DNA of 64,000 nucleotides from an uncultured Psychroserpens sp. (GTDB taxonomy: Bacteria; Bacteroidota; Bacteroidia; Flavobacteriales; Flavobacteriaceae), in assembly GCF_947492715.1 (NCBI RefSeq), contig NZ_CANLNS010000001.1:620001-684000 (forward strand), written 5' to 3'. The position numbers were made by a program, and so were the translations under genes. Below, piece by piece: positions 1,384 through 21,003 of the stretch (position 1 is its first letter; every line of letters starts with the position of its first letter). The notes under the pieces were generated by a model. The model made no database searches. It was not told the DNA's origin and saw only the letters and a program-made list of their open reading frames with translations.

Positions 1384-2150
1384 GTGCGCTTGTCTATAGT
1401 ATCATTTTTTTAGTCTTAGTTACTCTAGGACTTATCTTATTTTTTTATTACTCACGCAAAAAACTTATCGAGAAAGAGGTTGAAAAAATTAACATTAAAC
1501 TCGATCATCAAAAAAAGATATTACAAACCACAATCAAGGTTCAGGAAAAAGAACGTAATCGTATTGCTCAAGACTTACATGATGCTATTAGTTCAAAATT
1601 GAATGTGGTGAGTTTAACAACCAACGTTTTAATTGAAGACGAAACCATTTCTAGCGAGCATAAAGAAGCTCTAAATCATATTTTAGATATTACCACAAGA
1701 ACGCTAGAAAGCTCCAGAAAAATTGCGCACGAATTAATGCCTCCAATTTTAGACAAGTTTGGTTTAAAAGTGGCTTTAGAAGAGTTGTTTGAAGAGTTTA
1801 CATCAAACACATCTATAAAAATAAATCATCAAATTGAACCCCTAAATCAATTAGATAGAAATAGTGAACTTCATGTGTTTAGAATCGCACAAGAACTAAT
1901 TAATAACGCCTTAAGACATGGCAAAGCAGACCTACTACAAATGCATTTAAAAAAACAGAAGCAAGGCTTTGAACTCGTTTTCAAAGATAATGGCATTGGA
2001 TTCGACGTCAATGAACATAAAAAGAAATCCGGAATTGGATTACAAAATATTAAGAGTAGAGTTGCGATATTGAATGGGCAACTTTTTGTTGAGAGCTCTA
2101 AAAAAACGGGAAGTATATTCACAATTAATTGTTACTCTTATGGATACTAA
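1344..2150 (+). CDS. Sensor histidine kinase, HisKA_3 (NarX/LytS-like)
   Basis: The protein has 268 residues. One membrane helix lies at about residues 12-37, followed by a short linker coil. The HisKA_3 dimerisation helix carries ERNRIAQDLHD with the phospho-acceptor His79. The ATPase domain shows the N box ELINNALRH near 184-192, the G1 box DNGIGFD near 215-221 and a GIGLQNIKSR G2 motif near 230-239. It should autophosphorylate and pass phosphate to the response regulator encoded immediately downstream, whose start overlaps this stop by 11 bases. There is no recognisable sensor domain, so the preceding membrane protein is a candidate for that task. Confidence 0.92.
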   Translation: MENEFSAGQEQIIGALVYSIIFLVLVTLGLILFFYYSRKKLIEKEVEKINIKLDHQKKILQTTIKVQEKERNRIAQDLHDAISSKLNVVSLTTNVLIEDETISSEHKEALNHILDITTRTLESSRKIAHELMPPILDKFGLKVALEELFEEFTSNTSIKINHQIEPLNQLDRNSELHVFRIAQELINNALRHGKADLLQMHLKKQKQGFELVFKDNGIGFDVNEHKKKSGIGLQNIKSRVAILNGQLFVESSKKTGSIFTINCYSYGY

Positions 2151-19847: not shown

Positions 19848-19878
19848 AAAAAGATTCCTCTTTTGAAGGAATCTTTTA
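19848..19878 (-). terminator. Intrinsic terminator of greA
   Basis: The stem AAAGATTCCT/AGGAATCTTT with a seven-base loop and flanking A/T runs lies 26 bases after the greA stop and before the HIT gene. A U-run in the minus direction is short, so some read-through into the HIT gene is likely. Confidence 0.6.
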
Positions 19879-20402: not shown

Positions 20403-20486
20403 ATGCTGAAATCTAAGAACTAGCATAAGCTAAACTCGTTCAGCATAAAAAAAATCTCGCTATCACGAGATTGAAATACAAAGATA
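20403..20486 (-). promoter_or_regulatory. greA leader: promoter box, attenuator and second hairpin
   Basis: Reading on the minus strand: an exact -7 box TATCTTTG (20486-20479); then the hairpin AATCTCG/CGAGATT (20472-20453) followed at once by eight U (20454-20447), a complete intrinsic terminator starting at about +5; then a second stem ATGCTGAA/TTCAGCAT (20446-20403) that encloses smaller pairings (GAAC/GTTC, TAGC/GCTA) and is followed by a U-rich run. greA starts 26 bases later. CTCGT in hairpin 1 can also pair with ACGAG in the second element, which would break hairpin 1. No gene lies upstream on this strand in this gap (20378-20568), so the terminator acts on greA itself. Confidence 0.6.
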
Positions 20487-20568: not shown

Positions 20569-21003
20569 ATGAACAACATAAAAAAAATATCAATCATTTT
20601 ATCTCTTCTGTTGATAACGAACTGCGGAAGTGACGACAGAATAAATAATTGTAATTTCTTACTCAACGTTGGTGTTAATGCATCGCTTAATTTAAACTTA
20701 CCAGAATTTAGTCAACTTATGTTTATTAGTAATTCGGTATATATCCCTAATCAAGGAAATGGAGGGGTTTATGTAACAAATGTTGGAAACGGTAATTATC
20801 GTGCCTGGGACGCCTATGACCCTAATCATGCGCCTTCAACTTGCTCGTTTTTACAAAGAGATGGTGTAAATGTAACTTGCGGCTGTGCTGATGAGAATGA
20901 GTACAGTTTGTTTACAGGGCAGGCCATTGGAGATCCTTTACCTTGCGGACTTAAAGAATACCGTGTCACAGTTTCTGGTAATACTTTGGTGGTTAGCAAT
21001 TAA
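20569..21003 (+). CDS. Rieske-like lipoprotein lacking canonical cluster ligands
   Basis: The 144-residue lipoprotein has a signal ending in LLITNC (Cys19). The rest resembles a family of Bacteroidetes lipoproteins with a Rieske-type beta fold: a strand pair NYRAWDAYDP, then cysteines at 92, 104 and 106 and a late YRVTVSGNTL strand. A true Rieske cluster needs two CxH-type ligand pairs; here one loop has CGC and the other lacks Cys-x-His, so [2Fe-2S] binding is doubtful, and the cysteines may instead form disulfides. It is divergent from greA and ends in a shared terminator. Confidence 0.65.
   Translation: MNNIKKISIILSLLLITNCGSDDRINNCNFLLNVGVNASLNLNLPEFSQLMFISNSVYIPNQGNGGVYVTNVGNGNYRAWDAYDPNHAPSTCSFLQRDGVNVTCGCADENEYSLFTGQAIGDPLPCGLKEYRVTVSGNTLVVSN

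Follow-up and report, generated by a model that had tools for sequence, protein, structure and literature searches.

The window, by which we mean the whole stretch of 64,000 nucleotides of DNA analysed here, belongs to a Flavobacteriaceae-like genome of 4.2 Mb in 41 contigs and carries the gene for the transcription elongation factor GreA on its minus strand. Two Pfam domains identify the gene product as GreA (GreA_GreB_N, 4e-28; GreA_GreB, 1.2e-24), and the best-matching named greA among the matches listed is that of Hanstruepera neustonica (94%). The gene, its leader and the neighboring upstream frame comprise the following features:

20569-21003, plus strand: upstream open reading frame of 144 aa, divergent from greA, small and lipoprotein-like by eye, no Pfam match
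20486-20479, minus strand: -7 promoter box TATCTTTG (TAnnTTTG) of greA, from sequence reading; start predicted about 5 nt downstream
20472-20453, minus strand: first hairpin T1, 8-bp stem AATCTCGT/GCGAGATT with loop GATA, from folding, conservation and covariation; predicted to begin at about +3
20454-20447, minus strand: run of eight T, the U-tract of T1, from sequence; the first two T pair in the T1 stem and six lie beyond it
20446-20403, minus strand: second hairpin T2, ATGCTGAA (20446-20439) with TTCAGCAT (20410-20403) and an inner stem, from folding and genus conservation
20402-20391, minus strand: T-rich tail of T2, CTTTTTATTATT, from sequence
20390-20375, minus strand: A-rich translation start region with the greA ATG (20377-20375) and an out-of-frame ATG 7 nt upstream, from sequence
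20377-19904, minus strand: greA, transcription elongation factor GreA, 157 aa, from the open reading frame and Pfam

The box starts 109 nt ahead of the greA ATG and is separated from T1 by a spacer of 6 nt. Between the end of T1 and the ATG there are 75 nt, so that this terminator-like hairpin lies inside the 300 nt preceding the start codon, in the same orientation as the gene. Sequence reading confirmed the layout given in the original prediction, namely an exact -7 box, a hairpin 6 nt further on and a second hairpin with a T-rich tail, all ahead of the greA ATG. The eight U that it placed behind the first hairpin are present as eight T, but only six trail the stem. T1 folds with -9.2 kcal/mol (z -3.7), and one of 200 shuffled sequences folded equally well; the corresponding values are z -2.6 and 4/200 for T2 and z -3.0 and 2/200 for the whole leader. 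No Rfam family reached its gathering score anywhere in the window, the best sub-threshold match near the site having an E value of 6. Since the TAnnTTTG box of Flavobacterium psychrophilum occupies positions -12 to -5 relative to the start (PMC9723704), the +1 of greA is predicted near 20474 and the T1 stem from about +3. Stops at T1 and T2 would then release short RNAs of roughly 28 nt and 78 nt, respectively. The region between greA and the divergent frame at 20569-21003 may hold back-to-back promoters. At the other end of the gene, a further terminator-like hairpin (AAAAGATTCC..GGAATCTTTT, 19849-19877, minus strand) lies between greA and a downstream HIT-domain gene, and letters resembling it were seen by eye in several loci of the genus.

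Leaders of relatives were scored by a strict rule consisting of the -7 box, a hairpin and a T-tract with at least 6 T in the best 8-nt window. The family set contained 130 leaders with almost one genome per genus; greA had been matched in 148 family genomes, and the 18 not taken into the set were mostly more divergent ones, three of the 18 being read in the phylum set. The named set consisted of the best 80 of at least 590 genomes. The phylum search covered 118 genomes, from which 48 new leaders were read in addition to those of the window and of locus L055, leaving 68 unread. These genus, family, named and phylum sets partly overlap, and loci of Gre-domain paralogues (L024-L030) were excluded from all leader counts.

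By the strict rule, the terminator-like element was present in 23/23 genus and 93/130 family leaders and is thus conserved in relatives. It was also found in 61 of the 80 named genomes (best 80 of at least 590) and, within the phylum sample, in 6/11 leaders from the same family or order and 7/16 from other orders of the same class, but in 0/21 leaders from other classes. Among the upstream regions of 481 other open reading frames used as control, the rule was satisfied once (1/481). An exact box with a looser hairpin adds 32/130 family leaders, 9/80 named leaders (best 80 of at least 590) and, from the phylum sample, 3/11 of the same family or order, 2/16 of the class and 1/21 of other classes, compared to 13/481 in the control. 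The 37 family leaders outside the strict rule thus comprise these 32, four with a non-consensus box only and one with a terminator but no box; a few of these calls looked doubtful by eye. The relaxed classes of the scanner are weak, as 68 of the 481 control regions were scored 'relaxed' and 298 'weak hp only', and because of this frequency no conclusion rests on them. In the other classes of the phylum a terminator alone was seen in 5/21 leaders versus 28/481 in the control, and the element is not established there. Terminator-like hairpins are visible by eye in many leaders of these classes.

The combination of box and hairpin is rare in the genome itself. Over 859 kb, i.e. the window and 40 further stretches scanned on both strands, 4 of 1133 TAnnTTTG sites, greA included, have a hairpin with T-tract behind them when the stem must have 6 bp or more and must follow, with the T-tract, within 12 nt of the box. 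When the greA leaders were read on the other strand, none of the boxes had a hairpin behind it (0/1 in the genus, 0/28 in the family and 0/47 in the named set, best 80 of at least 590).

Relative to the predicted start, the first T1 stem position of the 93 strict family leaders falls between about -1 and +5, with 44 of them at +3. A stem at the predicted 5' end would make the full-length mRNA begin in a near-blunt hairpin, and T1 could accordingly protect the greA message, its U-run being incidental or aiding ribosome loading. We consider this improbable because such a hairpin needs no T-tract, yet in 76 of the 93 leaders the best 8-nt window at the stem end contains 7 or 8 T, where the rule itself required only 6.

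The arrangement of neighboring genes bears on another reading, in which T1 terminates transcription arriving from upstream. Divergent upstream genes were found at 22/23 loci of the genus, 28/28 of the family and 65/77 of the named set, i.e. in 115 of these 128 loci with the window included (named loci from the best 80 of at least 590), and the greA box stands between T1 and any such transcript. A same-direction upstream gene occurs in 12/77 named loci (best 80 of at least 590), nine of which are more distant Flavobacteriales (L128-L135, L138), and in 7/20 loci of the phylum sample. A flanking-gene terminator was rejected for the family on the basis of the divergent upstream genes, and overall we regard this reading as extremely unlikely.

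The original prediction had named covariation of the stems in relatives as a check, and the T1 stem does covary in the family. Because the hairpin finder itself selects pairing stems, 115 family leaders were picked solely for having exactly one TAnnTTTG box within the final 200 nt and aligned over 50 nt from the box; this alignment, A1, leaves out 15 of the 130 leaders, seven with several boxes and eight with none in 200 nt. At the eight T1 pairs of the window, 88.2% of 917 cells pair in A1 compared to 80.3% after shuffling, 59 cells are altered on both sides compared to 19.2, and the covariation score is 0.366 compared to 0.218; none of 500 shuffles reached any of these values. Structures slid along A1 pair in only 25.6-54.6% of cells. 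The number of pairs changed on both sides showed no excess (6 vs 5.1 shuffled, 134/500 shuffles), further pair types amounted to 19 vs 16.7 (26/500), and RNAalifold gave no consensus pairs on this gappy alignment. Among stems selected for pairing, the family types are TCTCG/CGRGA (61/130), TCCTC/GRGGA (25) and TCCCG/TGGGA (20).

Within T1, G-U was found in 133 cells and A-C in 40, and this large excess indicates that the sense strand, as RNA, is the pairing one. The same counts weigh against the palindrome being a DNA operator, e.g. for an autoregulatory repressor, as A-C is the antisense counterpart of G-U; moreover, the stem sequence differs between lineages while pairing is kept. An operator would agree with a symmetric site that overlaps the predicted start and with the core TCTCG arm that is uniform in 23/23 genus leaders, and yet it appears very unlikely to us. 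The T1 loop is variable, with 53 different loops among the 93 strict family leaders. This may argue against the leader serving as the source of a GraL-like short RNA acting in trans, as the original prediction also considered. E. coli GraL acts in trans as well (PMC6829880), but for the leader described here we find such a function quite improbable. In four leaders (L079, L082, L089 and L092, from Muricauda, Flagellimonas, Croceivirga and Allomuricauda records) the loop apparently holds an insert, AAATCCTCGC..GAGGATTTTTT, with an inner stem, as judged by eye.

The second hairpin was counted in leaders that extend 35 nt or more beyond T1, as a hairpin with a T-rich tail beginning within 14 nt. 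T2 is real in the genus: it occurs in 20/23 leaders where 0.2 would be expected from shuffles, in support of the two hairpins originally described. In the family it occurs in 41/94 leaders (1.0 expected); 35 family leaders are too short after T1 for this count, and in 11/130 the ATG follows 24 nt past the stem. Many leaders therefore carry tandem hairpins and others a single one. The T2 arms vary in step (ATGCTGAA/TTCAGCAT, ATTCCGAA/TTCGGAAT and GTCCCGAA/TTCGGGAT). A REP-like origin of T2 was rejected for this genome, as the 859 kb examined contain TGCTGAA..TTCAGCA at a single site, that of greA.

Among the candidates scored, one clear copy of the leader element exists in the genome, at greA. 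A covariance model of the leader, R1, scored greA with 47.4 bits (E 2.5e-5) and the next match with 27.7 bits (E 0.17), with 150 of 5645 first-look candidates scored; a dispersed element was rejected as R1 gave no second clear copy among these candidates. The strict rule found the element in none of seven Gre-domain paralogue loci of the genus when the 600 nt preceding each match were scanned (7 of 10 matches fetched). Elsewhere in the same genome, two near-identical units of TAGATTTG, GGGC, hairpin and T lie about 300 nt apart (L318:6385 and L318:6684, minus strand). A weak R1 match (L329, about 1501-1556, minus strand; 27.4 bits, E 0.19) reads TATATTTG followed by a weak hairpin and T-tract, and overlaps the start of a 323-aa frame resembling an M23-type peptidase (named by eye).

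The T1 stem is weak. Its median energy in the 93 strict family leaders is -8.6 kcal/mol (quartiles -9.4 and -8.0) with a mean of 3.0 G-C pairs, whereas a search behind 518 open frames of this genome gave 60 gene-end terminators with a median of -16.1 kcal/mol and 4.3 G-C pairs. Such weakness is more in keeping with a leaky attenuator than with complete termination.

As a way to relieve termination, the original prediction had offered pairing of CTCGT in T1 with ACGAG downstream. This antiterminator was rejected: the partner is unconserved, ACGAG being present downstream in 3/23 genus leaders and in 2/61 family leaders with the CTCGT arm. Furthermore, ACGAG would be made only after the polymerase has passed T1. 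More generally, 6-mers complementary to the 5' arm of T1 occur in 9/127 family leaders (6.1 expected); as a caveat to the rejection, they exceed the shuffled expectation in the genus, with 6/23 leaders (1.6 expected), and complementary 5-mers are present in 10 genus leaders (6.5 expected). Only about 2 nt precede the stem by the predicted start, which leaves no room for an RNA antiterminator ahead of T1. With an antiterminator unsupported, leaky termination remains, either fixed or modulated by factors on the polymerase.

Attenuation of greA has been described in E. coli (PMC6829880). There, GraL ends roughly two thirds of the transcripts that start out towards greA; without GreA, reporter output rises about 3.5-fold and GraL falls about 4-fold. 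Catalytically active GreA represses greA via GraL whereas GreA D41A does not, and this feedback was seen in vivo but not reproduced in vitro. Like GraL, the leader in the window has a predicted intrinsic terminator, here recognized by sequence signature and conservation, between the greA promoter and the greA start, and the short leader RNAs of E. coli have predicted counterparts in the window. T1 bears no relation to the E. coli stem, read by eye as GACCTGGG..CCCGGGTC, and R1 gave one match on the E. coli greA region (3.8 bits, E 8.9) that lies within greA and none in the leader. In E. coli, 19 nt ahead of the GraL terminator are needed for the full GreA response, compared to the approximately 2 nt that precede T1 by the predicted start.

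Given the position, conservation, covariation, strand, single clear copy and stem weakness observed here, we propose a promoter-proximal attenuator of greA that, by analogy with E. coli GraL, would act as a brake under GreA feedback, a reading we consider rather likely. RNA polymerase leaving the greA promoter would make the hairpin from about +3 and have reached the U-tract by about +28. Some of the complexes would halt at T1 while the remainder continues into greA; in this genus a further fraction may halt at T2 near +78. The stem would be kept weak for a leaky stop, and the element probably limits the amount of GreA made. Catalytically active GreA would probably increase termination and steady its own level, as with GraL. 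In all 159 loci long enough to read (159/159, of 279), the GreA tip has its acid motif, GDxxEN. We infer the start site, termination in the cell and its extent, and GreA as the signal. Provided that the element terminates, feedback by GreA is the likeliest use of the leader, a view that we hold with about even confidence.

Alternatively, T1 could stop a fixed share of transcripts and keep greA expression low without sensing GreA. The narrow range of stem energies in the family (quartiles given above) would agree with this, as would the lack of both a conserved RNA switch and room for an upstream sensor. On the other hand, a weaker promoter would suffice for the same end, and E. coli GreA works via its leader (PMC6829880). 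We regard such a constant setting as rather unlikely. Extending the GreA brake beyond this family, a minimal autogenous switch may be envisaged, in which greA of Bacteroidia, and perhaps of most bacteria, is balanced by a start-proximal terminator. Polymerase in a promoter-escape or early-backtracking state would be the only sensor, the leader would read GreA activity directly without an RNA switch or other factor, and the phyla would have converged on this solution; we put this forward tentatively, as a possibility.

Attenuators of greA as such have already been predicted in other phyla. In their survey, Naville and Gautheret (2010, PMC2965389) list the greA/rnk family as seventh and predict such leaders in Proteobacteria, bacilli and Clostridia. 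The claim of a GraL-like attenuator outside Proteobacteria therefore stands as to a terminator-like element right behind the greA promoter box, but its occurrence outside Proteobacteria is not itself new. Like the leader in the window, those leaders are predicted transcription attenuators of greA that recur in several phyla; each of them was described as having an antiterminator structure, whereas the leader in the window lacks room for one ahead of T1 and a conserved downstream pairing. No word beginning with Bacteroid or Flavobac occurs in the main text of that survey. The F. psychrophilum study reports 64 structured leaders in the same family and with the same TAnnTTTG promoters, and greA is unnamed in its main text (PMC9723704). 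It is likewise unnamed in the main text of a Bacteroides thetaiotaomicron map (PMC7366714), and within partial literature coverage we found no Bacteroidota greA leader described as having a terminator. Set against the earlier cases, the leader differs in that its hairpin lies almost at the predicted first nucleotide, its stem is weak and varies little in energy, T2 is frequent, an antiterminator is unsupported and no sequence relation to that of E. coli was detected.

Control of the GreA dose is unsettled even in E. coli, with feedback in vivo and none seen in vitro (PMC6829880). A leader of promoter, hairpin and U-tract only, conserved over the family and present in part of the class sample (7/16 by the strict rule), is a simpler object. 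It hints at the portions of the E. coli leader that may not be needed, and with it the link between GreA and the terminator becomes accessible to work with purified components and a Bacteroidota polymerase. We suggest that greA expression data from Flavobacteria be read alongside 3'-end mapping.

The translation start region, AAACGATGAAGTT before the greA ATG, is conserved in family leaders. An out-of-frame ATG stands at -8 in 69/130 family leaders and at -7 in the window and 11/23 genus leaders. In its commonest form, this upstream ATG opens a tiny reading frame, ATGAAGTTATGA, whose stop overlaps the greA start.
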